DNA of 64,000 nucleotides from Neorhizobium galegae (GTDB taxonomy: Bacteria; Pseudomonadota; Alphaproteobacteria; Rhizobiales; Rhizobiaceae), in NCBI RefSeq assembly GCF_017877135.1, contig NZ_JAGIPH010000004.1, positions 1-64,000 on the forward strand, in the 5' to 3' direction. The stretch's first letter is position 1. Every line of letters starts with the position of its first letter. The notes beneath the pieces are model-generated. The model ran no database searches. It was not told the origin of the DNA and was given only the letters and a program-made list of their open reading frames with translations. Below, one piece after another: positions 44,131-60,576 of this stretch. A program made the translations under genes and the position numbers.

Positions 44131-44490
44131 ATGGCTCCAATTTCGGCGGTGGGCTTCACAACGGTAGAGCGAGAGTTGCGCGACCTGGGTACGCGAATTG
44201 CCCGTATTCGCCTCAGCCGGAACCTCACTCAGGCGAGCCTTGCACGCGAGACCGGCGCATCAGTCCGCAGCATCAAGCGGCTTGAGGCCGGCGAGAATGT
44301 ATCTCTCGACACGCTGATACGTGTGCTGGCGGCGCTCAACCTCGGTGATCGGCTGGCGGCAGCCTTGCCAGATCCCGATGTCAGGCCGGTTGAGCGCATC
44401 AGGCATGAGGGACATGAGCGCCAACGCGCTCGCGAGCGCAACGCCGTCCAGAAAGCAACCGAGTGGGCGTGGGGAGACGATGAAGAATGA
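44131..44490 (+). CDS. hipB: HipB-like antitoxin/repressor
   Basis: 119 aa from ATG 44131. Longer starts would overlap the TATAAT promoter, and AAGG lies at a proper distance before this ATG. The Xre-type HTH is ARIRLSRNLTQASLARETGASVRSIKRLEAGENV. The C-terminus is charged (GHERQRARERNAVQKATEWAWGDDEE). It should bind the kinase encoded next and repress the operon. Overlaps hipA by ATGA. Confidence 0.88.
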   Translation: MAPISAVGFTTVERELRDLGTRIARIRLSRNLTQASLARETGASVRSIKRLEAGENVSLDTLIRVLAALNLGDRLAAALPDPDVRPVERIRHEGHERQRARERNAVQKATEWAWGDDEE

Positions 44491-45800
44491 CGGACGCAAC
44501 CGTTCGCCTTTGGGGCAAAGACATTGGCGCTGTGAGCTGGATCGAAGAGCGTGGCGTCGGCGTATTCCAGTATATGCCTGAGTTTGTTCCCAGCGACATT
44601 CAACTGGCGCCGATCATGATGCGGCTTGGGCCGAATCCCTATGAGTTCCCGGCCTTGCCGCGGGATGCCTTCAAAGGTCTTCCGGGCCTTCTCGCCGACT
44701 CCTTGCCTGACAAGTTCGGTAATGCCCTGATCGACACATGGCTTGCGGCGCAGGGAAGATCGGCCGGGAGTTTCAATCCGGTCGAACGCCTTTGCTACAT
44801 TGGAACGCGCGGCATGGGCGCGCTGGAGTTTCACCCGACCATCCTCAAGGCTACCAGAAAATCCCGTATCCTTGAGATTGACGCTCTGACGCAACTCGCC
44901 AACGATGTCCTGAATAACCGTGAGAAGCTGACAGGCGTTTTGCAGGGTGACGATGATCGGGAAATGCTTGAAGAAATCCTGCGGGTTGGAACATCCGCAG
45001 GTGGCGCTCGCGCGAAGGCGATCCTGGCCTGGAACGAGAAGACCGGAGAGTTCCGTTCAGGTCAGGTCAAGGCCGGTGAGGGTTTCAGCTACTGGCTCAT
45101 AAAGTTCGACGGTATCTCGAACAACAAGGACAAGGAATTGGCAGACCCGCAAGGGTTCGGGCTGATCGAATACGGCTTCTATCTCCTTGCGGTCGCCGCA
45201 GGCATCGACATGAGTGAATGCCGTATTCACAGGGAGGGCGGTCGTTCGCATTTCATGACACGGCGCTTCGATCGCAGCGCCAGCGGTCAGAAGCTGCACA
45301 TGCAATCGCTTGCGGCGCTTCGCCATTACGACTTCAACGCGGCCGGCGCTTACTCCTACGAACAGGCTGTTGAAACGATCCGATTGCTCGATCTTCCCGC
45401 TTACGACATTGAACAGCAGTTCCGCCGGGCTGTGTTCAATATCCTGATCAGAAACCAGGACGATCACGTCAAGAACATCGCATTTTTGATGAACAGGAAA
45501 GGCGAATGGCGATTGTCGCCCGCATTTGACGTGAGCTACGCCTATAATCCGAACGGTAGTTGGACACACCAGCACCAGATGAGCCTCAATGGCAAACGTG
45601 ATGGTTTCGACCTGTCTGATCTTATTCAGTTTGGCGTTTTTTGTGGGATGAAGCCGAAAAAGGCCGAGAAAATCGTTCGAGACATGCGTACCCATGTCGA
45701 AAACTGGATAGAATATGCCGATAAAGCAGGCGTTGCCGAGAACGTGGCAACTTCAATCCATAGAATGATGCGCAGGGATATAGCCGTTCAGCCGTGGTGA
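44487..45800 (+). CDS. hipA: HipA-like serine/threonine kinase toxin
   Basis: 437 aa. The N-terminal HipA_N part has YMPEFVPSDIQLAPIMM and LPGLLADSLPDKFGN. The kinase core includes GTSAGGARAKAILAW (ATP loop), SYWLIKFDG, and the catalytic loop FNILIRNQDDHVKNIAFLM with metal-binding SPAFDVSYAY. HipA toxins phosphorylate proteins such as glutamyl-tRNA synthetase and cause dormancy. Here it may stabilise the element or act as a defence effector. It is placed between the trb operon and the minus-strand defence block. Confidence 0.9.
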   Translation: MTDATVRLWGKDIGAVSWIEERGVGVFQYMPEFVPSDIQLAPIMMRLGPNPYEFPALPRDAFKGLPGLLADSLPDKFGNALIDTWLAAQGRSAGSFNPVERLCYIGTRGMGALEFHPTILKATRKSRILEIDALTQLANDVLNNREKLTGVLQGDDDREMLEEILRVGTSAGGARAKAILAWNEKTGEFRSGQVKAGEGFSYWLIKFDGISNNKDKELADPQGFGLIEYGFYLLAVAAGIDMSECRIHREGGRSHFMTRRFDRSASGQKLHMQSLAALRHYDFNAAGAYSYEQAVETIRLLDLPAYDIEQQFRRAVFNILIRNQDDHVKNIAFLMNRKGEWRLSPAFDVSYAYNPNGSWTHQHQMSLNGKRDGFDLSDLIQFGVFCGMKPKKAEKIVRDMRTHVENWIEYADKAGVAENVATSIHRMMRRDIAVQPW

Positions 45801-46142
45801 AAGAGACGCCCGAGCATAGACGGAACACAACAAGCTACGTCAGGCATCTCGTGGTGGCCGAGCGAACTTTCGCCGGACCGCTTTGAACGACGTCCGAATA
45901 GCGCAATCGTCTCAGCGCTGATCACGATGACTGATGACAGTGGCCGTTTTCGCATCTCGTTGCGGCTCTCGCTGAGGCAAACCCGTCGAATTCCCGTTTG
46001 CAGAGCCTCGCTCGGCTTTCGACGATGATCGTCGAGTGGCTCTCGTTCTCCAGGAGTTCCGGTGCGATCGAAGAGTGATGAAAGCTCGAAAGTGCGTTTA
46101 GTCCAGCAACAATAGGGCTAACGCCTGATGTCCTTTCTTTGT
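45801..46142. other. gene-free junction between hipA and the defence block
   Basis: About 340 bases where plus-strand hipA and the minus-strand trio converge. No open frame of interest, no clear terminator and no repeat was found. Confidence 0.5.
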
Positions 46143-49100
46143 TTACGGGATGCCTCCTATTGTCCGAATATCGTCCAGATGAACCTGCGTGAAACGGAGC
46201 CGCACGAATGCGCCCGCAAGTTCTACTGATACCTCGGGCGCTTCGGCGGCAGCGATCTTCTCGCGCAATTCAGCGTCGGTGATCGGATTTGCATGCCGCC
46301 ATTTCGCTGAGCAGGTCGGACATAGCGCCAGATGGTTCTCGGGTTGTTCTTGGGGTAGGGAATCGAGGCATTCGACAGCCTCAAAATATGGAGAGCCATC
46401 TGGCCGGTTAAACGGCATTTTGTCGTGACATCCCTGACAGACCATTTCCCCCAAGGGATTAGTGTATTGATCTTCCAGGTATGTGCGAGCGACCTTGTGG
46501 CTCTCGGCGTTGCTTGTTCGCACCGATCGCGCGCGAACTTCATATGTCTTGGTGGGCGCTGCTTTGGCGCGCGCGGCAAGCCGTTCTGTTCGTCGCGCGG
46601 CATTTCCGGTCTCGCGCACGGGGAATTCAACTGGTTCTAATGCGCCGCTGTCAATGGTGCGCATCATGTCCGCACTCAATGTTGCTAGAGCCTCCGGCGA
46701 GAGGCCATTCAACCGATCGATTAGTTCCGGTGTCAGTCCTATCAGTTCGCCGGCCTGGCGCCGCGCTCTGGCTTGCTCGCCGCGCATACGTTCCTGTTCG
46801 CCGAAGCCAATTGCACGGAGCCAATCCTCGTTACCTCCTATTGAGAACCCTTTTGCTAGGTCGGGAGCGGTGATCTCGCTCGGTTTGCGAAGAGATCCAT
46901 CCTTTGCAGGTATCCATGGTGTCTGGCGCAGAAGATGGCCGATTGATGAGGGGGCCCGGTGGGCCGAATACTGTTGGTTAGGCGAATACTGGGCTACCAT
47001 AGCCACCGCCCCGGCTTGACGGGCTGCGTCCCAAACCAGCTTTGAAATCTGGGGGTCTTGGCGCTCCAACAACGATGCCAGTTGGTCAATACGGTAGTCG
47101 ATGTCGATGCCTGTGCCAGTGTGCCGTGCTGAGCCCCAGTTATGGCGTAGACTGCTCCAGTGCGGATGGCCGTAGGGAATTGTGGACGACAGGATCTTGA
47201 GTTGCCGCTCAACGCCGCATGCCTCAAGAAATGCTACAAGATCAGCACGGGGGAGAGATTTGTATCCTTCCCACAACGCAACTCGACTGCGATCGGGGAT
47301 CGTCCCGTCGTATATTCTGGATAGTAGCGTATCCTGGTAGGGCAATCCGAAATAAACCTCGCCAGGATTGCTGTAGGCTGCGTCGGCTCCGGCTCGGACA
47401 AACGCAAGACCATTAAAGAGGCCCAAATCCTTGTGTTCCTTCCACCACCGCAAAAACCGACGCATATGCTGAATATGCTGCTCGCGGTTAGGTCGAGGAC
47501 TTTCACCCTTATACCGTGTCCGGATGATTGCGCTTAAGAAGGCGCGTTCATCGATGTCACGAACACCTACGCGACGAAGAAATTGCTCTACGTCTTTGCC
47601 TCTGCCGCGACCGAGCCTGATCAGGCTTTTCTTGACAAGGTACAACTCACCTTGGTCAGTCTCTGACTCCAAGTCGCTGTCGGCAGGAGCGAACACAGCA
47701 TATCGGGGCGAATGACGACGGCCATCTTCCAGGCGGACAAATGGCATGTCCGCGATCGATATCGGAGGCCGTTGTGCTTTTTGCGCCGCGTCCAGAGCAA
47801 GGTAGAATGACTGAACTTGCTCATCGGTGCGTTCGCCAAACCACTTTAGCCCACGAGTGCGCCAGAGTTTGTCACTCTCGCTATATAAATTGTGAAGCCC
47901 AAAGACGTGGCGGAAGGAAGTGAAAAAGTCCGCCGAGCCGAATTCCTCAATCTTCAGCGTGTTGACAAAATGGTCGGCCCGACTGTTCCGGAGGGCGGGG
48001 ACAATCCACCGTCGATCTGACCGATTGGAGAACTCGGCTAGTCCTGCCTCACCAAGAAGATCTCGAAGGTCAGCCGGGCCACGGATAGCGGCCGCCGTTC
48101 TAGTGAAGCCGCCGCCGTGGACCGGAATCAGATCCTCCTCGGCGAATTTCTTCGTGATCGTCTCAAGTATTGGAGCGAAGGTTGATGGCAACTCGTCCAT
48201 TGCGTTGGGCAGCAGATCTAGCACGCCGCGCTTGAGCATCCCGCGCTCGCGCAAATCGGGAAGTGCATCTGCAACCATGTTGGCGATAGCGGCTACGAGC
48301 TGAGTGTTCCAGGGGTCGTCGCGCTTGATGTTACCGCGGTTGTCCGTGAGCTGAAAAGGGCCATGGATCGTAAAGTGTAGCCCAGTAAGTTCCTCCGTTT
48401 CGAAGAACACCATCAGGCGGGTTGGTGCGTCCTCCGCAACAAGATCGCCGGCCCCGTTCAGCTTTAATGCCGCCTTTACCGCATGCTGTTTGCGATTGGC
48501 CTCTTGCTCGACTGCCCGCTCCAGCACCAGATAACGATCGAGGTTCGTGCTTCCATCCGGCATCGTTGCTTTGATTGAACGGATCGAGTTGCCGGAATCA
48601 ACGACTTCGGCGGAACCACGTCGATCACCGTCAATCCAATCAAGCTTCTGCACATGGCGAAGAAACAGAAGTGATCGAGCACCCGACGCGATTAGCCCCT
48701 CCCGCGCCCGGTCGAGCGCCAGCCCTGCACGGTCTGGTCGAAGTGGCAGTACAATTTGCGTAGTGCGCTCGAGGTGGTCGGAGTTGATGAGGCTAGGGAC
48801 CACCAGCCGGTCGATGGCGAAGGCGAGTGGCGTGTCTTCGATTGTCGAATGAACCTCGGGGCGCTCGGTGACGACGTATACGGATTTAAAGCCAATGCCG
48901 AAGCAGCCGATCTTGTGACCATCGTCCAGCTTGGTAGTGTTGCCGATGCCGGTAATTCCCTCAATATCGTCACGGTTGAAGGGCCGCCCATCATGCTCGA
49001 AGATGATACGGTCGGGCTGCAGCTCGAAACGGACCCACGATGCCGCAGCATCCTCGGCGTTTTGCAGGAGTTCAAAGATGAAGTGGCTGGGGTCAGCGTA

Positions 49101-49217
49101 CTTGTCGACGGTCGCGTTCCAAATGCCGCGATCGAAATCGTTTTCATGGCTAGCGTCGACCCAACGCTGCCGTTTCGCTCGCAAGTTTCCTAACCAATCC
49201 TGGAAAGTATCAGCCAT
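46143..49217 (-). CDS. GHKL (sacsin-like) ATPase with C-terminal HNH-like zinc domain
   Basis: 1024 aa. The N-terminal ATPase is of the sacsin/Hsp90 GHKL type: N-box FELLQNAEDA (about 48-57), FEHDGRPF (G1, about 73-80) and GCFGIGFKSVY (G2, about 104-114). The long middle part is unassigned. Near residues 925-970 MVCQGCHDKMPF and ALCPTCSAKW give two CxxC pairs around YFEAVECL and an Asn, the frame of an HNH domain, but the usual catalytic His after FEA is Val, so cleavage activity is doubtful. It lies one base after the SNF2 gene, with a sigma-like gene ahead. This trio has the look of a defence system I cannot name. Confidence 0.8.
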   Translation of the reverse strand: MADTFQDWLGNLRAKRQRWVDASHENDFDRGIWNATVDKYADPSHFIFELLQNAEDAAASWVRFELQPDRIIFEHDGRPFNRDDIEGITGIGNTTKLDDGHKIGCFGIGFKSVYVVTERPEVHSTIEDTPLAFAIDRLVVPSLINSDHLERTTQIVLPLRPDRAGLALDRAREGLIASGARSLLFLRHVQKLDWIDGDRRGSAEVVDSGNSIRSIKATMPDGSTNLDRYLVLERAVEQEANRKQHAVKAALKLNGAGDLVAEDAPTRLMVFFETEELTGLHFTIHGPFQLTDNRGNIKRDDPWNTQLVAAIANMVADALPDLRERGMLKRGVLDLLPNAMDELPSTFAPILETITKKFAEEDLIPVHGGGFTRTAAAIRGPADLRDLLGEAGLAEFSNRSDRRWIVPALRNSRADHFVNTLKIEEFGSADFFTSFRHVFGLHNLYSESDKLWRTRGLKWFGERTDEQVQSFYLALDAAQKAQRPPISIADMPFVRLEDGRRHSPRYAVFAPADSDLESETDQGELYLVKKSLIRLGRGRGKDVEQFLRRVGVRDIDERAFLSAIIRTRYKGESPRPNREQHIQHMRRFLRWWKEHKDLGLFNGLAFVRAGADAAYSNPGEVYFGLPYQDTLLSRIYDGTIPDRSRVALWEGYKSLPRADLVAFLEACGVERQLKILSSTIPYGHPHWSSLRHNWGSARHTGTGIDIDYRIDQLASLLERQDPQISKLVWDAARQAGAVAMVAQYSPNQQYSAHRAPSSIGHLLRQTPWIPAKDGSLRKPSEITAPDLAKGFSIGGNEDWLRAIGFGEQERMRGEQARARRQAGELIGLTPELIDRLNGLSPEALATLSADMMRTIDSGALEPVEFPVRETGNAARRTERLAARAKAAPTKTYEVRARSVRTSNAESHKVARTYLEDQYTNPLGEMVCQGCHDKMPFNRPDGSPYFEAVECLDSLPQEQPENHLALCPTCSAKWRHANPITDAELREKIAAAEAPEVSVELAGAFVRLRFTQVHLDDIRTIGGIP

Positions 49218-49218
49218 A

Positions 49219-52200
49219 TCAATGCTCCACTCGCAACATTCCCGAGGCGACGCGACGAGGCAATATATCCGCCCGCCGTTCTGCTATAGTGAGACTATCG
49301 AGCGACTCGCGGCAATCTGCATTCGCCCGTGCCAACTGCCCCGTCCGCATACGTCGGATCCGCTCTTCCGTAGTGGCGGCAAGTTGCTCTTCTAGAATTG
49401 CAACTCGAGCTCGATGGCTTGCTTCCAAGCTATCTCGCCGGAAACGCGCGATCTCACTTGCTTCAGCAATGTGGGCTGCCCGGCGCCGTGTCCACATCTC
49501 GTGGTGCCAGCCTTCAAGACCTTCGATTTCTGAACTGCTTGGCGGCGCGACGTCCGGGGCATCGTGAGCCCTTGTGAAAACGTCCATAAATGCCGCCGCG
49601 ACCTGCGGATCCTCGACCACAGGGACCAGCATCGCGTCTTCCCGAAGACCGCGCATTTGCCACTGATAGATCGCGAATGGGTGTTCCCCTACAGGCAAAG
49701 CGGAGTCAGTTATTCGCAAGGTCACGAGAACCTCCTCGTCACTAGCGAACGACCGCGCTGCCGCTTGGGTTAGTGGGTGAACCGGTGTGATGAAGGAAAG
49801 CGACCGGTCTTCGTTGGCGGCCTCACGGTCGAATGTAAGAGAAAGCGTCTGTTGGTCACCTCGCAACCATGTTTCCCATTCGCGTTCGGCAAGGCTAAGA
49901 CGCGTGCCACGGGCGCGTGGTGGTACAAGCCGACGGCGGGCATCAGCCGACAGCCGCAGGCTCTTGATTGGACCCTGTCCACTGATGGGATTGCGACCGA
50001 CATCAAGTTCACGCTCGAGATGAAGCCCGACTAAGCGCTCGATCGCTGCCGGCTCGAGCCAGCGACTTGATGCCTCAGCAATTTCATCGTCCATACGGGT
50101 GCGCTCGATACGCACTCCAAACAACTCTGCTTCTCGCTCCTCAAGTGCATCGGTTTCAATAATCTGGCGGATCTCGTTGTCTGCAAGCTGCTGCAACCGC
50201 GCCTGGCGCTCCTCGTCGGTCAGCCGGAAGTCGTCTGCCACCGCTTGTAAACGACCAGCGATCTCGCCAAGGATCGCCTCGCTACCTCCGATAGCCCGTT
50301 CGAAAACGCCTATCCGCGATAGGCAGCGTTGGAAGATATCGAAATCGACCGTACCTGGCGTGACGAAGTTGTAGATCGCAACCGTTTGGCTCTTCTGCCC
50401 GTAGCGATCAATTCGACCGATCCGCTGCTCGATCCGCATAGGATTCCAAGGGATGTCAAAATTTACGACCGCGTCGCAGAACTGGAAATCCAAGCCCTCG
50501 GAGCCGACTTCGGATGAAAGTAGAACATCAATCGCATCTGGATTGCCGGGGGCAAGGGCGAACGCCTTACGCAAAGATCGGCGCTCGTCATCCGGGATGC
50601 CGCCATGAATGAGCCCTGTCCGCACGCCTCGGGAGCGCAACGCCTCGTAAAGATAAGCCAGCGTGTGCCGAAATGAACTGAACGCCAGGAGGCGCCGATT
50701 CGGCATGCCGGCCTTCTGAACAACAATATCGAGGAAAGCGGCGAGCTTGGGGTCATCATCCGACAAGTTCTTCGCTCGTACAACCAGCGCAGCGATTTCG
50801 GAGCGAACGGACGCGATGTCATTGTCGCCATGATCTAAAGTGTCGCAATCGATCTCAGCGAGTTCGAGGTCGCTCAGTCGGCGAGACAAAATATCTTCCA
50901 GAAAGGGTGCAAGCCCATGCAGTGAACTCGCCGCTTGTCGCCGAATTGTGGTCATAAGGAAGCCGAGGGGCCCGGTGCCGTGGGTGCGCAGATAGATGGA
51001 GCGCTGCAATGCCAACAGGTCGTCGTGAACGCTCTGCTGCTCCGGGGTGAACGGAACCTCGACAGTCCGCGCCTTGCGGCTGGTGAAGTTGCCGATATCG
51101 CGCCGCCTTGTGCGGCTGATCATCGTCGAGAAGCTGTGGAGACCTTCTGCTGGGCGGATGAGGCGAACCCTATCATCATCTGTCGCGGCATTTTGTGTGG
51201 CGGACACCAGGTTACGGTATTCCGGAGACGGCGCGAGCATCACGCGGCCCCAATCGGTGGCGGCAGCCTCACCCAGATGCGCAATAACCTCATTCTGCCA
51301 GCCAGGAGCTGCGCCTCGGATAGCGGCAATGGCTGCGTTGATCGTCTCGTTTGGTTCGGCCATCCGCTCGAATGTAGGACGGTCGATGACAAGGTCGGGG
51401 CGAAGTAGATTCAAAAGGGAAAAGAGGTCACCGGTCCCGAGCTGCACCGGTGTTGCGGTTATGAGTACGACAGCTTCTGCTTCGTCGGCGAGAATCCTCA
51501 ATCCTTGGTGAAGTCCGGTATCGCTATTACGTGCGTTGTGCGCCTCATCCACGATCAGAAGGTCGAACCGAGGCGGGGTGTCTAGAGTGCTTAGACCGGG
51601 CCCTCGAACGGCACCCCGTTGAGGATAGCCCTGCAGAAGATTGTCATTCACAAGCGAGAACGGCAAGATTGCTCGAGAATAGCGGTCCGGCCATTCGCCC
51701 TCGAGATCGGTCTGATCGAGGCAGTAGCGCAACTCATCACTGCCGAGCGTTACAAACTCCTCATCGAAGCGCCGCATTTCACGGTGCCATTTCTCCTCGG
51801 CGACTAGAGCCTTCGAGCAAATGATCAGAACGGAGCGCAAAGGACGACGTGCCTGCAATTCCCTCAGCAGCAAGCCAGCTTCAATGGTCTTCCCGACACC
51901 TACCTCGTCGGCTACTAGCAAACGCGGCCGGTCGGCGCGGATAAACTTGAGCACTGGCCGAAACTGATAGGGTATGAAGTCGATGCGCCCGGCCTGCAAT
52001 GAATAGAGATTGGCGATGCTTGGTTCGGCGAGCTGAAGTGCGGTCAAGCGGGCGTTAAACTCGCTCAAGGTCGCGCGCACCGCTCCCGGGGTGAGATCGG
52101 CGCGGACAACCTGGCTGATGTAGAGTGTTTCAAGGCGACCGTCGATGAAGACGCTCAAGCGGGTTTCGCGGTTGCTCGGCGTGATGCCTGTAATGACACC

Positions 52201-52428
52201 AATCCGCGCGGCATCGGAGCGCAAAGCAACGGTCTCGCCGATCCGAAGCGGTTGGACAGTCTCCATTCCTGACACGCGAGCGGCGATAAGCTCACGCACC
52301 TTCTTCTCGAGAGCAGCTACATCGACCCCATTGGCTTGCGCGGTTTCAACAATCTCTTCGTCGCTGGCGTCGAGTATGCCTTCTGCAATCAGTGCGAGGA
52401 TCTGGTCGGATTCAAAGGGTGTCGTCAT
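49219..52428 (-). CDS. SNF2/RapA-like helicase of the defence trio
   Basis: About 1069 aa from the ATG at 52428, chosen because it overlaps the sigma-like stop by ATGA; an in-frame ATG lies 9 bases earlier. Motifs are ADEVGVGKTIEAGLLL (motif I, about 174-189), LLIVDEAHNARN (II, near 290), LITATPVQ (III), and RIGRIDRYGQKS (VI, near 669). The C-terminal third is helical and charged. The type is that of RapA and DISARM DrmD, but no drmA, drmB, drmC or methyltransferase is present. It should act on dsDNA, possibly stalled or foreign DNA, with the GHKL protein. Confidence 0.85.
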   Translation of the reverse strand: MTTPFESDQILALIAEGILDASDEEIVETAQANGVDVAALEKKVRELIAARVSGMETVQPLRIGETVALRSDAARIGVITGITPSNRETRLSVFIDGRLETLYISQVVRADLTPGAVRATLSEFNARLTALQLAEPSIANLYSLQAGRIDFIPYQFRPVLKFIRADRPRLLVADEVGVGKTIEAGLLLRELQARRPLRSVLIICSKALVAEEKWHREMRRFDEEFVTLGSDELRYCLDQTDLEGEWPDRYSRAILPFSLVNDNLLQGYPQRGAVRGPGLSTLDTPPRFDLLIVDEAHNARNSDTGLHQGLRILADEAEAVVLITATPVQLGTGDLFSLLNLLRPDLVIDRPTFERMAEPNETINAAIAAIRGAAPGWQNEVIAHLGEAAATDWGRVMLAPSPEYRNLVSATQNAATDDDRVRLIRPAEGLHSFSTMISRTRRRDIGNFTSRKARTVEVPFTPEQQSVHDDLLALQRSIYLRTHGTGPLGFLMTTIRRQAASSLHGLAPFLEDILSRRLSDLELAEIDCDTLDHGDNDIASVRSEIAALVVRAKNLSDDDPKLAAFLDIVVQKAGMPNRRLLAFSSFRHTLAYLYEALRSRGVRTGLIHGGIPDDERRSLRKAFALAPGNPDAIDVLLSSEVGSEGLDFQFCDAVVNFDIPWNPMRIEQRIGRIDRYGQKSQTVAIYNFVTPGTVDFDIFQRCLSRIGVFERAIGGSEAILGEIAGRLQAVADDFRLTDEERQARLQQLADNEIRQIIETDALEEREAELFGVRIERTRMDDEIAEASSRWLEPAAIERLVGLHLERELDVGRNPISGQGPIKSLRLSADARRRLVPPRARGTRLSLAEREWETWLRGDQQTLSLTFDREAANEDRSLSFITPVHPLTQAAARSFASDEEVLVTLRITDSALPVGEHPFAIYQWQMRGLREDAMLVPVVEDPQVAAAFMDVFTRAHDAPDVAPPSSSEIEGLEGWHHEMWTRRRAAHIAEASEIARFRRDSLEASHRARVAILEEQLAATTEERIRRMRTGQLARANADCRESLDSLTIAERRADILPRRVASGMLRVEH

Positions 52429-52955
52429 TGTGTCCATCCAGTCTTGAATTGGCGTCGAAGCGTTCGGGTCATGCGGCGGCGGGCCGTGTCGTAGCCGGTT
52501 GCGTCAAGGCCAAGCTGGTCGAAGGCTTGCTTCCGGCTGGTTTGCGTTAGGATATGATCGAAGATGCCGAGTGCCGGCGGATCGTCCACAAGTGTCGCGC
52601 GCATGCGGACAGCAAGATCACTGAAATCAAAATCCAGGTGTCCCGCCGTTTCAACGTTGGGCTCATCGCCATCGCCGATGAGCGGCTCGCGGATGTCCTC
52701 GCGGCGCCATTGGCTAGCGATACTACGCATCACCTGTGACAAGAAGGGATGGAGGCCAATGTCAACAGGCCACGGCCGATCTCCAGAAAGGACTCGCGCC
52801 AACGCCTCATTCAATAGATCGGACGCATCGCGGCGAGGCACACCACGCACCCAAGTCTCGGCGATTGCCGCCAAGCGCAGGATATCGGCCTGTCGCTGAC
52901 GATGCAGCAACCGGGCGACTTCCTCACGTGAAAGATGTTCCACCTCGTCTGACAT
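52425..52955 (-). CDS. sigma-70-like small protein heading the trio
   Basis: 176 aa. Residues about 40-85 (DASDLLNEALARVL, LHPFLSQVMRSIASQWRR) resemble sigma region 2, and the last 35 (AFDQLGLDATGYDTARRRMTRTLRR) resemble the region 4 helix-turn-helix of ECF sigma factors. The middle is acidic (GDGDEPNVETAGHLDFDFSDL). GAAGGG precedes the start. It could be a true sigma factor for this operon or a DNA-binding recognition subunit that borrowed the fold. A sigma-like first gene is unusual in defence operons. Confidence 0.7.
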   Translation of the reverse strand: MSDEVEHLSREEVARLLHRQRQADILRLAAIAETWVRGVPRRDASDLLNEALARVLSGDRPWPVDIGLHPFLSQVMRSIASQWRREDIREPLIGDGDEPNVETAGHLDFDFSDLAVRMRATLVDDPPALGIFDHILTQTSRKQAFDQLGLDATGYDTARRRMTRTLRRQFKTGWTQ

Positions 52956-53106
52956 GAGCCCTTCTCACTGCCCTTTGTCAACATTGCGCTGCTTGGCAAG
53001 AAAATGGGAAGGGCATGCGAAAGTTTTTGAAAAAAGCTTGATGCACCCAGATTTTAAGATCGCATTTGAAGCCTCATCGAGACCAACAACTGGGTATCCT
53101 CGAACG
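52956..53106. other. spacer between two defence operons
   Basis: About 150 bases between the minus-strand sigma-like start and the stop of the ABC ATPase gene. It should hold the promoter of the trio on the minus strand. No clear -35/-10 pair was identified. Confidence 0.4.
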
Positions 53107-55017
53107 TCATGCGACGTGGACTTGGTTGAGGCGTTGGAAGTGCGCACCATCAAGACCCCTGAAGGAAGCTCCCGTCATTATAAGTTGCGCACCTGCGAAT
53201 GCATCAGTTTGCAGGAGGTCGACGAAGGGCTGGACGATGAAGTTTTCCTTATCTTCCACAGCTTCACCAGAGAATTCCCCCGGCACGTCTATAATCAGAA
53301 ATCCGGGATAATGTGTCTGCGGGTCGGCGCTCAGACTAAGTAAGCCGTAGTGATAGGCCATCAGGAAATAAAGAGTGTCGGTGCCGCCGAGCGCAACGTG
53401 CCACCGACGCTTACCCACCCTTATCGTGAAACTCGATCTTGTAAGGTCTACCGTTACTGCGCTGTGCCGCCAAACGTTTGGTCGCAATACGTTAAGCGCA
53501 TTAAGGTAGGCGTTCATGCCGTCCTCAAGTTTGCTGGCGCTTGCCTCAAAATCTGTCGATTTGACAAGTTCGTTTACGCTCTCTTGCAGCGGCTCTATTT
53601 GTTTCTCCAACCTGCTAATTTGCTCGGTTAAATCTCCCTCCAGCTCGAGCGCGCCAGCTATCCGCCCCAGCTGACGTTCGCGTTCGCTAGCCTGTCCGAG
53701 TGCTACGTCGATGCCGCTAACTTCTTCCTGGACGAAAGCAGAGATCCTTTCCCGAGCTGGGGCGAGCTCGCGCTCAATCAGTCCAAACTCTTCCTCGGCG
53801 TCGTTAAGCGTCGCGCCCACATTCGCCGACTCTTTCGATAACACATTAAGTAACTCATCTGCCTCAACGAGTTCGGCCATGAGGCGCTCTCGCTCGAATC
53901 GAAGCCGAACTGCGCCCAGTTCTTCGATAGTGGGTTCGTCGGGCATGACTTGGTGGCAGAGAAAGCAGTGGTCCGCACTCGCTTTCTGGGAGACGGCTTG
54001 GTCGCATGCCGGGCAATGTGTGATCCGTAGGTCTGCCAGTACCGCGCCCGCGTCTTCTGCGCGAGCGATCCGTTCCAGTTCGTTTGACAGCTCGGTGCGA
54101 TACCGTTTGAGCTCAGTTTGCCGCTCAGTCGTTAAGCGAAGTCGGCGTCGGCTTTCCTCAAGCGTGACTAGCGCTTCGGCCCGGCGCTCTGCAAGACGCG
54201 AAATATGACCCTGCGTATCAGCGGTGATAGCCCTTCGTCCTCCGTCTCTGAGGAGCGTGGCTCTGCGCTGCCGAAGTTCCGTCGCCTGCTCAGAAAGACG
54301 TAGTTGCGCGGATCGAACAGACGCGCGGTTTACGGCCACCGATAGTTCGGGCTCGCTAATGATGTCGCGGGCGAGTTGGTCGAGTGTTTGGTTGAACTGC
54401 TCCCGCCGCGATCTCAGACGTTCCGCCTTCATCCGCAGGTCTATCAAATTTCCGTAGTCGTCAGTGTAGATGCGTTCGGCGAGGCCAAAGAACTGCAGCA
54501 GACAAGCATGCTGCTCCGCCTCAGGCTGCTTGTCGGCGATATCTCCCCAAAAACGCTGCTGGCGATAAATGTGTCGCAGCATCATCCGGAAGCTGAGCTC
54601 AGGCCAAGTTTGTCCCGACATGGGATTGCCCTTGGGGAAATTGAGCAAGGGTATTTGTAGGCTTTGCATTAGCCAATGCTGAAATTCTTTTGGCGACATA
54701 GCTTCCTCGCCGACGAATATCTTGGTTTTCGATCCCGGCTCCCGCCACTTGCGCTCTAGTCTGAAAGCTTCGCTACCTATTATTAGATCAACGGCTGCCG
54801 CTTCATATTTATCAGCGAGGCCGGTCTCCTCGGCTCCTTCAAAAGGGTTCTCACCAGGATCCCCGAGCAGGAAATCCAGCGTCTGAAGCCACTTTGTTTT
54901 CCCGGCATTGGGGGGCCCTACCATCAGGTTGACGCCGGGTGCAAAGACAAGCTCCTCGACATTACCTGTCGAAAATGTTCGTTGAAGGCGTGCGATGCTT
55001 AGAAACGGGATTTTCAT
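53107..55017 (-). CDS. ABC/Rad50-like ATPase of an ABC three-component system (DUF3732-type)
   Basis: 636 aa. Walker A is MVGPPNAGKTKWLQ (residues 32-45). A long coiled coil follows, with a zinc-hook-like apex near residue 335 (THCPACDQ and DHCFLCHQ, two CxxC pairs). A second coiled arm leads to a diverged signature ALGGTDTLYFL (near 540) and Walker B FLIIDVPGEFSG (near 573). It should sense or clamp DNA and control the nuclease. The gene follows a winged-helix middle component by ATGA. DUF3732 is known as the ATPase of one ABC-3C branch, related in layout to Lamassu LmuB. Confidence 0.85.
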   Translation of the reverse strand: MKIPFLSIARLQRTFSTGNVEELVFAPGVNLMVGPPNAGKTKWLQTLDFLLGDPGENPFEGAEETGLADKYEAAAVDLIIGSEAFRLERKWREPGSKTKIFVGEEAMSPKEFQHWLMQSLQIPLLNFPKGNPMSGQTWPELSFRMMLRHIYRQQRFWGDIADKQPEAEQHACLLQFFGLAERIYTDDYGNLIDLRMKAERLRSRREQFNQTLDQLARDIISEPELSVAVNRASVRSAQLRLSEQATELRQRRATLLRDGGRRAITADTQGHISRLAERRAEALVTLEESRRRLRLTTERQTELKRYRTELSNELERIARAEDAGAVLADLRITHCPACDQAVSQKASADHCFLCHQVMPDEPTIEELGAVRLRFERERLMAELVEADELLNVLSKESANVGATLNDAEEEFGLIERELAPARERISAFVQEEVSGIDVALGQASERERQLGRIAGALELEGDLTEQISRLEKQIEPLQESVNELVKSTDFEASASKLEDGMNAYLNALNVLRPNVWRHSAVTVDLTRSSFTIRVGKRRWHVALGGTDTLYFLMAYHYGLLSLSADPQTHYPGFLIIDVPGEFSGEAVEDKENFIVQPFVDLLQTDAFAGAQLIMTGASFRGLDGAHFQRLNQVHVA

Positions 55018-55580
55018 TTGGTGATTTTCTTCCCCATAGTGCGCTGTCCAACCTCATCGTCAAATAGTCTGTAGATCAGCGTCTTGAGGAATGTGCCTGT
55101 CTTTCCGCCGAAAACCTTCTTGACATCTTTCATCCGGGCAACGAGCGGAGCGAAAGATGGTCGGTCAGCTAATAACTTTGCTCGCTCTCGTCCGAAGTCC
55201 GTTAGGCCAATTTGATAGCTCTTTCCTTCCTTCCGAACGCTAATGAGCCCGCGCGCCTCAAGATGGGCAAGCACATGATAATAGCGTTTGTCCCAAGGGC
55301 CGTAATGATGCCGGACCATGGCCGACTCCACAGTATCCTCAGATAGCTTTTCCGCGGGGGCTGTCGGCGAAGGAGCAACAGCGGCTCGCGCAATTTCGAA
55401 AAAATCAGGATATCGCGAAAAGAAATCCAGCTTTGCCATTTTCGTCAATCCGTTAATGCGACCTTTGACACCGCAGATATCCATGAGCAGCAGAAGGCGG
55501 GCGGCGTGAAATTCTACTATGTCGTCCGCCGCCAAAGGCAGACTGACGGGCTGCAACCCAACGCGGTTGAGAGACCTCAT
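55014..55580 (-). CDS. ABC three-component system middle component
   Basis: 188 aa. An N-terminal helical part (DDIVEFHAARLLLLMDICG, GLTKMAKLDFFSRYPDFF) is followed by a winged helix (KRYYHVLAHLEARGLISVRK, GLTDFGRERAKLL). This size and fold and its place between nuclease and ATPase fit middle components of ABC-3C systems (LmuC-like). It probably bridges the effector and the ATPase. Overlaps both neighbours by four bases. Confidence 0.8.
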   Translation of the reverse strand: MRSLNRVGLQPVSLPLAADDIVEFHAARLLLLMDICGVKGRINGLTKMAKLDFFSRYPDFFEIARAAVAPSPTAPAEKLSEDTVESAMVRHHYGPWDKRYYHVLAHLEARGLISVRKEGKSYQIGLTDFGRERAKLLADRPSFAPLVARMKDVKKVFGGKTGTFLKTLIYRLFDDEVGQRTMGKKITK

Positions 55581-56746
55581 AGCACTGGCCTATTGAATCT
55601 TAGGAGGCAGCGATCCGTGATATCATATAAGCAACCCTTCAAGAATGCAGACCGGTCCTCTACCATCGCACCACGCTCCGCGTTGAGCGTGTCCATGCGG
55701 CTCAGGCAAAGCGAATGAAACTGTACGGGATCGATGTCTAATTCACCGGCGACAAATCGTGCGCGAAGGGACGCTACCTCTGACAGAACTCTGCCTTGAA
55801 GGTTGTTGACGTCGCTTTCATCAAGGTAGCGTGGTGCGCGGGCTTCAGACGCATAGCCACGCCTTAGCGCGGCGGCGAGAGCCGTCATCTCGTCCGGCAG
55901 TCCGGCCTCGGCCATTTTCAAGGCCAGCTTGCCGCCCGAGCGAGTTGCACCTTGGGAAATATCAAGGAGCCGCTCTTGCCACCAAGTCCGCAACTCTTCG
56001 CGGGTAATGATCTTCCTTGAAGAATCCGGCAACCATCTGGCTGCCCCGGCGGCCTTAGCTCTTGCTCGCAACTCGAGGAGCAAGTTCTCCGCCGGCTCAA
56101 AAAGGATGGACGTTCCCTCCTGATGTGCTAGGCGCATAAGCCTGACTAAGTTGTCCTTCTCGACAGCCCTTTCAGTGTCTCTATGGTCCCATAAGCAGTT
56201 GGCGAGCCAGAAGGCGGCATCTCTACCCTTCGGAGATCTGAAGCCGGGACACCGGCCTTCTATCTCCACGGCGAGCGCAACGATATCAGCATCAGCGCTT
56301 TGGCGTCCCTGCGAGGAGCGAGGGAAGGTCAGTGGCTTCAATGCGCTCACTACTGGTCGCAGCGTAACCAGCCGAAATAGGGAATTTTCAAGGTAGCCAT
56401 CTCTATCTAGCGATTTCTCGAAAATCGATGTCCCAGTTTTGGCCTTCTTGCGTTGGCAGATGTCGGCCACCGACCAGAACTTCTCCTCTTCTCCTGCCTT
56501 GACCTGTATATATTCGGCTGTGCGCGCGTCGATTTCTTCCCAGACGAGCACTATATCGTCGTGTGTCTCAAGGTGCACCTTAACGAGGGCAGGATTTGCG
56601 AGCATATCGATCAAAAAGCCGACAGCTATTTCATCTTGATAATTGAAGCCAGTACGAGCACTAGGACCGCCTTCTTCGACGGGCTGAGCATCGTCGATAG
56701 ATGGCCATACCTCTACCGCGGCAGAAATATCGTTCGCTCCCGTCAA
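55577..56746 (-). CDS. Cap4-like dsDNA nuclease effector (DUF4297)
   Basis: 389 aa. SARTGFNYQDEIAVGFLI (about 29-46) is the DUF4297/Cap4 start. Asp64 in THDDIVLVWEE and QVK (81-83) in EYIQVKAG give a PD-(D/E)xK-type active site of the D...QxK form. The C-terminal half (DVNNLQGRVLSEVASLRA and on) is probably the oligomerisation or partner region. In Lamassu-Cap4 and CBASS, Cap4-type nucleases degrade DNA as abortive effectors. Here it is the first gene of the ABC-3C operon. No CD-NTase is nearby, so it is not CBASS. Confidence 0.85.
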   Translation of the reverse strand: MTGANDISAAVEVWPSIDDAQPVEEGGPSARTGFNYQDEIAVGFLIDMLANPALVKVHLETHDDIVLVWEEIDARTAEYIQVKAGEEEKFWSVADICQRKKAKTGTSIFEKSLDRDGYLENSLFRLVTLRPVVSALKPLTFPRSSQGRQSADADIVALAVEIEGRCPGFRSPKGRDAAFWLANCLWDHRDTERAVEKDNLVRLMRLAHQEGTSILFEPAENLLLELRARAKAAGAARWLPDSSRKIITREELRTWWQERLLDISQGATRSGGKLALKMAEAGLPDEMTALAAALRRGYASEARAPRYLDESDVNNLQGRVLSEVASLRARFVAGELDIDPVQFHSLCLSRMDTLNAERGAMVEDRSAFLKGCLYDITDRCLLRFNRPVL

Positions 56747-57270
56747 GAGGGACTACCGGCAAAAAACTGATTCATGTATGATCATGCGGACGATGTTTTG
56801 ACCGCATCACTCCCCCTAAACGTGTCTTTTGCATCACAATAAACTTAGCGATGCAGAATGTCGATTGCCTTGGGCCGATAAAAGAAAAAACGCCCCATTA
56901 ATCGTGCGATCTCAAGAAAACCTGAGCAGAGTGGGAGTCAAAACGTAGGATGATTGGCCGGCAGAACAAGGATTAAACGTGAAGATACAATTTCTCTCGC
57001 GGCATGAAGACCCTGAGGAAGGAACGAGATGTCAATGACATGCACCTGATGACTGATTAGCATTTCGTTTGCATTTTCCAATTGCCGCGCAACCCGAAAC
57101 AGCTGGAGCGAACTCAAAACTGGATAAAACTTGAGGGAAAGGTCATCAGTTTTGCACGATATCTGATCTTTCCATTTGGCAGGGCGCATAAGCGTCTACT
57201 GATATATCAACGATGACAGCCGAAGAAATGATGAACGGGAAGGCTCGGCGAGTACGATGATGTCGTCAAA
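56747..57270. other. gap between the ABC-3C and Hachiman operons
   Basis: About 520 bases, clearly more AT-rich than its surroundings. A minus-strand open frame at 56938-57189 (83 codons) matches nothing I know and may be a relic. The minus-strand promoter of the ABC-3C operon should lie near 56750-56850. No insertion-sequence ends or direct repeats were found. Confidence 0.4.
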
Positions 57271-60200
57271 TCATTCGTCTTCCAGGAAGCTGTACAAGTT
57301 CTTCCCACGCCTCACACGTTCACGTGTGTCGTCGAAATTCTCAAATTCGCCACCAGCTTCAATGAACGCTTTGTAGTCGTTGTGCAGTATCATTGCCCTT
57401 ACTCGAGAAACGTCGCGGCCATGTTCCAGCCGGCTTGCTAGAGAATCGGGACTGTCGCATCCTTCACGAACGATCGCAGCCAGCGTGGACAAGACCGTTA
57501 GGACAGGGAAGGTCGGCTCTCCCTCGAGATCATTGGCGGCATTTCGTGCCACTAAGATCCTCGCAGGTAAGCCCGCGACAAATGCTAGATCCTGTACAAT
57601 TCTGAGCGCAAACTGCCTCGCAAACTTACAGTTTCCGACATCCTGTGTTCCAGTGTAGTGGCGCTCTATTTCGCATAGAGGGCGCGCGGACATCCATAAC
57701 GGCAGAATTTTTAGAAGCGCGGCTAGCCCTTGCCTTCCTCGCTCTTCGTCGGAAGGCAGTTTCTTGTACGCTTCGCCAAAGAGTCCTTCGAGGTTTTCAG
57801 GCCTGACGAAGTCAAGCAGTCGATCCGGGATTTCAGCGATCCATCGGAGTAGAAGCGTCATAATCTCAATGGCGCTTCCTTCTAAAAAGCCATTGTCGAG
57901 GAGTGTCTGGATTCCGCGCAGGTTCTGCACCGACACACCCGTCGATCCAGAGACAAGGTCAATCCACCCCCGTCCGGACGAGTCGCCCATGATAGCTTTT
58001 GCGTGAAGCGCCGCTTCGATGCGGGTTTCGATCCATCGTTGGTTGCCGTCCCGGTTTGCCCTGTAGGCGGCAAGGGTACGAGATAGCATTTTTCTTGCCC
58101 CATCAAACTCATCGTCGCCAGGAGAGAGAGGAAGCTTGCTAACAAGATAGGAAGACATGCCACCTTCTGCCGCACTGATATGAATTTGATCCAATAACTC
58201 CGTAAGTGGATCATCGATCTTGAGGCACTGATCCGATTGCTCGAAGATATTTCGCAATGTTGCCCAGTGATCGCCTATTTCGCCGGTTTCGTCGTCAAAT
58301 TCGATGACACGACTCGGGACGACCAAGACGAGCCCCTGCGAACGTTCTCCTGCCCGGCCGGCGCGTCCGGCGGCATTGAGCACCTCGTAAGCTTCTAAAA
58401 CCTCCATTCGTTTTGCCTTGGGATCGAAGCGGCTATCACCTGCGATAATGACAATTTCAGCGGGGAGATTCATACCCTGCGCAAGCGTTGAGGTGGCGAA
58501 AAGCACCCCGATTCCGTCTGGTCGTTTGAAAAGCGACTCGTGGAGATAGCGTTCTTCTCTTAGAAGAAGACCGTGATGGCTTGCCGCCCCGCCACTAAAG
58601 GTTCCATCTTCGTCGAGACGGAGATAGCAATACTCCGGGCCCCCCATTTCCTCGACGGCGAGGTGATGCCACTTTTGTTCACTTGTGTTAAGTGTGACCG
58701 ACGGAGCCTTAAGAAGTTCCCGAAAATCCCGGCTCGAGGCATTTGCCAGAACAGTCGTCTGGACAAAGACTAGGGTCTTGATGCCGCTCGCCGAAGATGC
58801 CGCAGCGATCGCAGCGCTCAGTTTGTTGCCGTTGGGCGTCAGCCGCCACCGAAGGAACCTATCCGGTGCTGTGCTGAAATGGGGTGCGTTGTTGATCATC
58901 CCCAGTAATGTGTAGTCTTCGGTATCCGTACTCGCCCATGTCTGGTGCAGAGAGAAAAGGCCGACCGGCGGCGCGGTCAGCTCTCGCTCGATTTTTGCTG
59001 GAGCGTTGTTCTTTTTTTTGGGATAGTCTTTTCGCGCTTGTATTAAAATTTCCCTTAGCTCGGCGATACGGTTCGCGGCGTAAACGACGGTGCCACGGAC
59101 CTGCCGGGTTGGCTTCCATGTAAGATCCAGAGCGAGGCAATCCCGTCCGGTTAGGTTCCGAACCCACGATGCTATCTCGCCTGCGTTCTTCATCATTGCA
59201 GAAAGCAGCAAGACGTCCGCATCAGGTGCCGCCGCTGTCAGATTGAGCAGGGTCAACATTGCGTCTACAGCGCGTCGGCTTCTGTCGTCGTCTCTTGGAT
59301 GAAGCAAATGGCATTCATCGAAGACGATGAGGCCGAGGTTTTCAAACGCCTCGGGTTGCACTGAGTGTAGAAGGAGGCATCTTTCCGGCGTAGTGACAAT
59401 TACCGCGGGAAGCACCACGACGTCGGCGACAGTAACCTCGTCCTCGAGATCGCCGACGACGTCGTAATCCTGGAATGTGTTTTTAAGCGATGTCGCCGTC
59501 TGGTCAACAAGAGCATTAGTCGGTGCGAGGAACACTACCTGCTCGCCGCGCAAGAGAGCCGCCGCGATCTTCAATTCAGCCAGCGTTGACTTCCCACCCC
59601 CAGTCGGGAAGCTGATCGCGGCAGAAACACCCTCTTCGAGATAGCCCTTGTCGATCGCATCCCGGTGATTGCGCCAGAGATATGGTCGCGTTGTCGCCAT
59701 CCTCTTAATTATCTTCCACCAGGCCGCTTCTCCGACGCCGCCTGGGGTCGGGGTGCGGGCGATCGCCGTAGCCGTTAGGTCACGCTCGACGGCAAGTAGG
59801 AGATTTGCAAGGTGAAGAGGGCCAGGGAAGAGACTGTAAACCGGGCCGTCCTCTGCGTCGGCTATTTTATCGACGCTGAGAGCCTTTACTTTCATAAATG
59901 TCGCTTGAGCAGTTCCGCTCCCAGTCAGGGATTCTTCGTCCGTTCTTGATAGAAGCTGCCTAGCTAGGCTCCTGACACCGATGAACAGATGGAGAAGAAG
60001 TGCCTCTTGCGCCTGGTCGTCGAGGGGAGCAGATTCGTCGAATACGGGAGACGCCATTGCCAGGATACCGTTCAGTTCCCCCCTTGCAAGGCGACGGATA
60101 GCTAGCGATAGAGCCGTTTCAATATCCGTCGCTTCTTCAACTTCAGGGAGTATTGATTTCGAGGCTTCGGCAGCGTCGGCGAAAGAGTCGGCAATCATGA

Positions 60201-60576
60201 ACAGAAGTGTCGCGCAGACATCGGGCGATACGGATGATCTATCGATATAGCTCTGCCGGGTCAGAGCCTTACGTAACGCAACGCCCTGAGCATACACTTG
60301 GTGCGCGGTTCCTGAAATAAACGCCGCCGCTGCGCGGTTCTCGCGGTCCGGTAGCAGCGCGACGAGGGCTTCGTGCGTAGCTGCGAGGCGTTTCATTCGG
60401 CGAAGCGTGCGTACCAAGCGGGCAGGAAGATTTTCGTCCTTGTTGTCTCTAAACCGCAATCTCGCCGCGACTATCTCCGCGTATGCTTTGGTGAACTCCC
60501 TGGGAAGTTCTTCGAGGTTGACACCCGTTAGTTCTGGGCCTGAGGCGATAAGTGATACGGTTGAGGCATCAAACAT
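57271..60576 (-). CDS. hamB: Hachiman helicase HamB
   Basis: 1101 aa superfamily 2 helicase. Motif I is SFPTGGGKSTLAELKIA (near 322-338), motif II is LIVFDECHLLHP (near 420), and motif VI is AGRAGRAGERS (near 735). Long extra N- and C-terminal domains fit HamB rather than a housekeeping helicase. It overlaps the HamA gene by eight bases. In Hachiman, HamB tracks DNA and releases the HamA nuclease when it meets damaged or foreign DNA, clearing the cell's DNA. Function here is inferred from the pair. Confidence 0.88.
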   Translation of the reverse strand: MFDASTVSLIASGPELTGVNLEELPREFTKAYAEIVAARLRFRDNKDENLPARLVRTLRRMKRLAATHEALVALLPDRENRAAAAFISGTAHQVYAQGVALRKALTRQSYIDRSSVSPDVCATLLFMIADSFADAAEASKSILPEVEEATDIETALSLAIRRLARGELNGILAMASPVFDESAPLDDQAQEALLLHLFIGVRSLARQLLSRTDEESLTGSGTAQATFMKVKALSVDKIADAEDGPVYSLFPGPLHLANLLLAVERDLTATAIARTPTPGGVGEAAWWKIIKRMATTRPYLWRNHRDAIDKGYLEEGVSAAISFPTGGGKSTLAELKIAAALLRGEQVVFLAPTNALVDQTATSLKNTFQDYDVVGDLEDEVTVADVVVLPAVIVTTPERCLLLHSVQPEAFENLGLIVFDECHLLHPRDDDRSRRAVDAMLTLLNLTAAAPDADVLLLSAMMKNAGEIASWVRNLTGRDCLALDLTWKPTRQVRGTVVYAANRIAELREILIQARKDYPKKKNNAPAKIERELTAPPVGLFSLHQTWASTDTEDYTLLGMINNAPHFSTAPDRFLRWRLTPNGNKLSAAIAAASSASGIKTLVFVQTTVLANASSRDFRELLKAPSVTLNTSEQKWHHLAVEEMGGPEYCYLRLDEDGTFSGGAASHHGLLLREERYLHESLFKRPDGIGVLFATSTLAQGMNLPAEIVIIAGDSRFDPKAKRMEVLEAYEVLNAAGRAGRAGERSQGLVLVVPSRVIEFDDETGEIGDHWATLRNIFEQSDQCLKIDDPLTELLDQIHISAAEGGMSSYLVSKLPLSPGDDEFDGARKMLSRTLAAYRANRDGNQRWIETRIEAALHAKAIMGDSSGRGWIDLVSGSTGVSVQNLRGIQTLLDNGFLEGSAIEIMTLLLRWIAEIPDRLLDFVRPENLEGLFGEAYKKLPSDEERGRQGLAALLKILPLWMSARPLCEIERHYTGTQDVGNCKFARQFALRIVQDLAFVAGLPARILVARNAANDLEGEPTFPVLTVLSTLAAIVREGCDSPDSLASRLEHGRDVSRVRAMILHNDYKAFIEAGGEFENFDDTRERVRRGKNLYSFLEDE

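Follow-up and report, generated by a model that had tools for sequence, protein, structure and literature searches.

DISARM (defense island system associated with restriction-modification), which we take to be defined by drmA, drmB and a methylase gene beside drmD or drmE, carries an SNF2-family protein in DrmD, while Tiamat is a one-gene system built on TmtA. In BREX (bacteriophage exclusion), BrxHII is built like RapA and BrxL has a sigma-like helix-turn-helix (PMC12839542), and prokaryotic MORC/paraMORC loci place a GHKL ATPase beside a superfamily II SWI2/SNF2 helicase with HNH nucleases, in neighborhoods of DNases and methylases and in restriction-modification settings (PMC2292703). Here we analyze a 64,000-nucleotide stretch of Neorhizobium galegae (positions 1 to 64,000 of contig NZ_JAGIPH010000004.1, hereafter the window) that carries on its minus strand an operon of three genes (hereafter the trio) encoding, in this order, a divergent extracytoplasmic function (ECF) sigma-like protein, an SNF2 ATPase and a sacsin-type GHKL ATPase with a C-terminal zinc tail. 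PADLOC, Pfam and NCBIfam do not name this combination, in agreement with an earlier note on this DNA, made from the sequence alone, that could match it to no named system. Neither the trio nor the sigma/ImmA-IrrE promoter family described below was found in the literature searched, whose coverage was partial and is no proof of absence. We think it probable that the trio is a self-regulated, sigma-led version of a wider SNF2-GHKL defense-type system, with the SNF2 protein as a likely anti-sigma factor. Judged from sequence, what is new here is a family-specific promoter-like element, a homology between the SNF2 protein and the second genes of stand-alone sigma operons, and a cassette exchange in the GHKL protein.

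The trio and its promoter-like element

All three open reading frames (ORFs) of the trio are intact and, as the earlier note had claimed, they are coupled, with a 4-base ATGA overlap between the sigma-like and SNF2 genes and a 1-base gap between the SNF2 and GHKL genes. The 4-base overlap was assigned because M4 of the SNF2 protein is the invariant start column in a seven-row SNF2 alignment. The same gene order was found in eight distinct loci, all from Rhizobiales: the window, Rhizobium populisoli (L003, on the same contig as G005), Mesorhizobium sp. B4-1-3 (L004), a Rhizobiales isolate (L005), plasmids of R. bangladeshense (L006), Rhizobium sp. BT03 (L061) and Ensifer adhaerens (L007), and genome G847 (L051). 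Identities to the window for sigma, SNF2 and GHKL proteins are 54, 73 and 52% in L007 and 51, 74 and 33% in L051. The ratio of nonsynonymous to synonymous substitution rates (dN/dS) against L003, the sole comparison with unsaturated dS, was 0.17 for sigma, 0.08 for SNF2 and 0.10 for GHKL. Given these ratios and the order kept in eight distinct loci, the trio is more than a chance arrangement.

A sigma-70 scan of positions 45800-53200 found no promoter. A bipartite element, TTCCC-N17-CGCA, is present at fixed spacing 54-56 nucleotides before the sigma start codon in all eight trio loci (TTCCC in seven, ATCCC in L007). Its two cores have mean pairwise identities of 95% and 100% across these loci, while flanks and spacer range from 26 to 45%. 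The exact element occurs only once in its own genome, ahead of this operon, and near-matches within two mismatches (66) do not exceed those of a backwards control (70); we thus claim no wider regulon.

Relatives of the sigma gene mostly carry GTCCG-N17-[CA]GCAT ahead of it. The form GTCCG-N17-[CA]GCA was first found by eye in four relatives (L008, L009, L010 and L052), and this expression then matched two of three fresh ones (L062 and L065, not L063) when 0.0085 matches were expected per region. A broader pattern was written after those loci and then fixed before six further loci. Eight of nine distinct relatives (the miss being L053) carried this pattern on each strand of the intergenic region, and 5 of 6732 control windows had it on both. 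Among the six newly fetched loci, the fixed pattern matched four at -49 to -54 (L102, L103, L104 and L106) and three on both strands; in 280 control upstream regions, it matched 12 on the sense strand and none on both. Near-copies of L009 and L010 (L064 and L066) were not counted, three of the nine new sigma relatives (H180, H181 and H182) were left out, and L070, where the sigma profile matched weakly within a longer ORF, was set aside. Present in every trio locus and in most relatives, the element is promoter-like, with the sequence features expected of an autoregulated two-part promoter.

The stand-alone relatives form a plasmid-rich family of operons with a sigma gene, a small second gene and often an ImmA-IrrE gene (L008, L030, L052, L053, L062, L063, L065 and L102-L107), and in most of them promoter-like elements are paired, point in divergent directions and face varied cargo. 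The reverse copy faces a divergent gene in a nucleotidyltransferase-SAVED stretch, which resembles CBASS (cyclic oligonucleotide-based antiphage signaling system), in L008; in L065 it faces a multiubiquitin-ThiF pair, and the corresponding cargo of L063 is a ThiF-patatin group. These operons share with the trio a homologous sigma, a related promoter element and a second-gene segment that corresponds to the N-terminus of the trio SNF2 protein. They differ in having a small second protein, often an M78-type peptidase as third gene, and a divergent second promoter, whereas in the trio SNF2 carries the segment as a fusion, and neither a peptidase nor a divergent copy was seen.

The product of gene 1 appears to belong to a divergent ECF-sigma-like family, a character that rests on its relatives and on a low-confidence model. 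The statement in the earlier note that it looks like an ECF sigma factor holds for the family, whose hidden Markov model (HMM) also picks up two canonical ECF sigmas with strong Pfam Sigma70_r2/r4_2 matches (L071 and L072), but the window protein itself matches no sigma model. Alone, it had no match in PADLOC, Pfam or NCBIfam, and a PDB profile search returned FocB only, at 1.4. Several relatives have weak, sub-threshold matches to sigma region 2 (best 0.00028), and residues 104-176 of the low-confidence model look like sigma region 4. No homologue of the sigma-like protein was found in viral contigs.

The SNF2 and GHKL proteins

The SNF2 protein matched PADLOC DrmD (7.3e-104) and BrxH (3.2e-57), and its nearest solved chains are RapA (2.3e-48); its DEVGVGKT, DEAH and QRIGRIDR segments do not vary across the seven-row alignment. 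Its N-terminus is related to the second genes of the stand-alone sigma operons. A forward HMM made from the first 62 residues of the eight trio SNF2 proteins and run on 1110 ORFs ranked seven of 15 second-gene proteins above unrelated ORFs (L010, L009, L008, L062, L104, L052 and L063). A reverse HMM built from 13 second-gene proteins of stand-alone sigma operons matched all eight trio SNF2 N-termini (E values from 1.1e-7 to 9.2e-5; the best unrelated control ORF stood at 0.12), and its best 40 rows included not one of the five sigma-less SNF2 proteins. By this homology, the small protein that follows sigma elsewhere is therefore fused to SNF2 in the trio, and its operon position suggests that the segment is likely an anti-sigma.

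Several sigma-less loci carry something else at this place. The SNF2 N-terminus of L026 (G164) matches HEPN_Swt1 (Pfam, 7.4e-13), an RNRWAH sequence (the Rx4H motif) stands at the same N-terminal place in all four of L026, L046, L048 and the remnant L050, and three sigma-less SNF2 proteins have a HEPN-like domain in place of the sigma-linked segment. The N-terminal slot is therefore HEPN-like in one lineage and holds a sigma-linked segment in another. The remnant (L050:570-2495) is one ORF in which the SNF2 N-terminus with its HEPN-like part is joined to the GHKL C-terminus, and it looks like the product of a deletion. SNF2 relatives in L054-L057 have other partner genes.

Surveys of wider taxa indicate that the trio is rare. 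SNF2 at 1e-120 was found in two of 397 order genomes, the second being G026, whose surroundings were left out of the trio assignment. Sigma at E<=1e-4 was found in four of 297 family genomes, of which two have the trio, and in two of 337 class genomes, the other one being of the ImmA/IrrE type. Counting the genome of the window itself, GHKL occurred in two of 100 relatives, and the GHKL profiles matched six of 337 class genomes and eight of 398 phylum genomes; this survey left out G274 and G557, and the contig of G477 (3 kb) is too short. SNF2 directly precedes GHKL, with no sigma gene, in four proteobacterial genomes (G164, G284, G488 and G491), and an archaeal plasmid (L013) carries such a pair at about 27% identity. 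G572 holds a fused remnant of SNF2 and GHKL, while in G183, G196, G538 and G628 GHKL stands alone and has a different tail. By comparison of loci, the wider core is the SNF2-GHKL pair, and we rejected the sigma gene as a core component because the pair exists without it. The three-gene unit of the earlier note thus stands as a co-occurrence in eight loci, as the neighborhood survey showed, but its sigma gene lies outside the wider core.

The GHKL protein matched Pfam SACS (7.4e-16, above cut-off), NCBIfam P_loop_sacsin (6.9e-27) and PADLOC TmtA (4.5e-58, over model positions 8-807 of 1302). Residues E49/N53/D56 and the G104-G107-G109 loop are invariant, giving a sacsin/Hsp90-type N-box and nucleotide-binding loop, with the boxes assigned on what we take to be the Hsp90 arrangement. 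The G1 box reads HxGxPF instead of DxGxG, so that of the intact N, G1 and G2 boxes reported earlier, the N-box and nucleotide-binding loop stand but G1 is present in modified form only. In an alignment with the ScoMcrA HNH domain (6ghc, E 7.5e-8), the C-terminal Cys4 domain of the GHKL protein keeps its four Cys, while EVHHV has become EAVEC and CPNCH has become CPTCS, as expected from the earlier description of a four-Cys domain with its HNH His replaced. An active HNH nuclease was rejected, the catalytic histidines of 6ghc being gone in the window protein. The fold model was of no use (predicted local distance difference test score, pLDDT, 41.5), and a phage search with GHKL gave one weak record. 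The same C-terminal zinc domain occurs without a GHKL domain in an 850-residue protein of a Proteus mirabilis plasmid (L011:6261-8813). A GHKL remnant of about 80 residues, 65% identical, lies on a Rhizobium plasmid (L058; CP140806.1, near 436263-436502), and NZ_CP050092.1 has the same remnant.

By alignment, the GHKL body is exchanged like a cassette between L007 and L051 (i.e., with sigma, SNF2 and the zinc tail kept). The DNA of these loci is 85% identical through sigma and SNF2 (94% for SNF2 protein and 85% for sigma protein), drops to 46-63% over about 2.3 kb of the GHKL body, where amino acid windows are mostly 21-54% identical, and recovers to 92% in the GHKL tail and the gene after it, which encodes a RecB-like nuclease. 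The reading frames of both GHKL proteins are open, and each comes from a record that is complete or consists of a single contig. Other trio comparisons gave GHKL/SNF2 identities of 85/96, 74/86, 72/85, 70/85, 69/86 and 52/73%. This exchange and the faster change of GHKL relative to SNF2 fit a recognition part under diversifying exchange. A TM0106-type RecB-like nuclease with helicase domains is the fourth gene after the trio in L007 (13117-16506) and L051 (13936-17328) only.

Proposed mechanism and alternative readings

If the trio is a self-regulated, sigma-led defense operon, its SNF2 N-terminus would hold the sigma as an anti-sigma in quiet cells. The SNF2 motor and its GHKL partner could then encounter a state of DNA, RNA polymerase or protein that is specific to phage, with sensing mainly by the fast-changing, exchangeable GHKL body and the zinc tail most likely docking GHKL to SNF2. 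The freed sigma would take RNA polymerase to the operon's own promoter, flooding the cell with SNF2 and GHKL, and the ATP-driven complex might remodel or clear protein-DNA complexes such that the phage is blocked. Antiphage action is a step we infer from context. The earlier note had offered two ideas for the sigma-like protein, and the element and the SNF2 segment favor the one in which it switches the operon on; the other, in which it recognizes an RNA-polymerase state, is the less probable. Its broader interpretation is upheld in the co-occurrence, the absence of a named system and the defense neighbors, but not in a sigma subunit as core or in a classical G1 box.

Several observations weigh against this reading. 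The sigma-like protein and five relatives matched only unrelated Pfam families at E<=10 and no sigma family, its fold model is of low confidence (pLDDT 53), and Foldseek with that model gave an ECF sigma as best match at E 0.13 and nothing at 0.001. The element was missing or off-position in relatives L053, L105 (without any match) and L107 (a match at -124, scored as a miss). Eight of the 15 second-gene proteins ranked lower in the forward HMM or fell outside the matches listed, and the anti-sigma role of these proteins rests on operon position. Only one cassette exchange was seen, a viral contig (L032) carries a lone zinc-tailed GHKL, and the GHKL tail of L048 has lost Cys residues.

The sigma-like protein could instead be a structural subunit, no longer a transcription factor, that attaches to RNA polymerase or promoter-like DNA and brings SNF2-GHKL to transcribing or hijacked polymerase, the element then being an ordinary operator or the promoter of another sigma. 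A physical partner is indeed suggested by the tight coupling of translation and by the homology in the SNF2 N-terminal segment, the nearest solved SNF2 relative, RapA, is an RNA-polymerase-associated motor, and the HEPN-like domain at the same N-terminal place in sigma-less loci looks like an exchangeable attachment. However, a family-specific element of ECF-like spacing precedes the sigma gene both in the trio and in unrelated family operons, and a protein that reads no promoter is therefore hard to reconcile with it; we regard this alternative as unlikely. We give still less weight to the idea that the operon is a regulator of a mobile element or of the host, removing stalled RNA polymerase or acting as a chaperone for nucleoprotein complexes, with no part in defense. 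The RapA similarity of SNF2, trb conjugation-type genes near the operon (by reading of ORFs) and four copies of the trio that lie on a plasmid or have plasmid genes as neighbors would suit such a role, yet defense systems, named or candidate, adjoin most trio loci (see below), both large proteins are closest to PADLOC defense profiles, presence is patchy (at the SNF2 threshold used for the order, the trio and G026 only) and the GHKL body has been exchanged.

That the operon is a divergent member of DISARM or Tiamat seems to us very improbable, even with DrmD and TmtA as the best PADLOC profiles for SNF2 and GHKL. The earlier note had called the SNF2 protein DrmD/RapA-like with drmABC and methylases absent, and this was confirmed: among nine window proteins scanned there was no DrmB, DrmC or methylase, and the DrmA profile matched only SNF2, through helicase similarity. 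Against the curated NCBIfam DrmD model (NF038317), the SNF2 protein scored 308.2 bits, half of the cut-off of 610. DISARM membership was rejected because of these missing partners and this score. The trio SNF2 protein shares family and overall match with DISARM DrmD, BREX BrxHII and RapA, but the other DISARM and BREX components were not found among the nine proteins and its partner is a GHKL ATPase. The GHKL protein is likewise closest to TmtA profiles (2.1e-75 for L013), but in the window it matches only the first ~800 positions of the model, it has a Cys4 tail, and it is paired with an SNF2 partner whose gene is adjacent in every trio locus. The tail is different in four lone GHKL relatives (L028, L029, L047 and L049), none of which has SNF2 next to it. 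MORC/paraMORC loci (PMC2292703) resemble the trio in a GHKL ATPase next to a SWI2/SNF2-type superfamily II helicase with HNH-type domains nearby, while the trio differs in its sacsin-type GHKL, dead HNH, leading sigma gene and lack of a methylase among the scanned proteins.

A bolder form of the favored reading, which we hold only tentatively, is an immune system with a sigma alarm. Here, the SNF2 motor would be the anti-sigma, its engagement by infection would directly free a private sigma that redirects RNA polymerase to a single promoter, its own, and the GHKL body would be an exchangeable sensor cassette. Sister lineages would hold a HEPN RNase in the same slot (i.e., one core with interchangeable outputs), and the plasmid sigma/second-gene/ImmA-IrrE modules would be a mobile regulatory family driving varied cargo, including CBASS-like and ubiquitin-like operons. 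If true, this would join ECF sigma control and phage defense, usually separate fields, and a defense motor doubling as anti-sigma would provide a direct route from sensing to transcription with no separate receptor or membrane signal. The GHKL exchange would point to the part that recognizes the invader, the replacement of sigma by HEPN would suggest a common core, and the GTCCG-N17-[CA]GCAT code would offer a way to the targets of the whole plasmid-borne sigma family.

Defense neighbors and feature coordinates

The earlier note had placed the trio between HipBA and two defense systems, and the neighbors found in the window are HipA on one side and Lamassu-like and HamB-like genes on the other. 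It had also named a location mainly outside defense islands as something that would count against its view; five of the eight trio loci adjoin a named or candidate defense system. These neighbors are Lamassu-like and HamB-like systems in the window, the same Lamassu-like operon in L061 (61-74% identical), IetAS in L003, IetS and QatABCD in L005, and PDC-M68B in L006. L004 has a weak type IV restriction match only, and L007 and L051 have the RecB-like gene only.

Table 1 Positions in the window of the trio, its parts and its neighbors
Feature	Coordinates	Strand	Basis or remark
Gene 1, divergent ECF-sigma-like protein, 176 aa	52425..52955	minus	ORF
Gene 2, SNF2 (DrmD/RapA-like) ATPase	49219..52428	minus	start at conserved M4; ORF opens at 52437
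Gene 3, sacsin-type GHKL ATPase with C-terminal zinc tail, 1024 aa	46143..49217	minus	profile matches
Bipartite promoter-like element TTCCC-N17-CGCA	52985..53010	minus	55 nt ahead of gene 1 start
SNF2 N-terminal segment, ~55 residues, putative anti-sigma	52264..52428	minus	reverse HMM
GHKL body, about aa 40-860, limits approximate	46638..49100	minus	exchanged between L007 and L051
Cys4 HNH-derived domain without HNH histidines	46146..46610	minus	10-row alignment; 6ghc E 7.5e-8
HipA	44487-45800		
Lamassu-like system	53107-56746		
HamB-like system	57271-60576		

Within the neighboring stretch at 53107-61387, the HamB-like helicase is accompanied by a 272-residue partner that matches no PADLOC profile, and the Lamassu-like operon consists of three genes encoding LmuB-like and LmuC-like proteins and a Cap4 nuclease.

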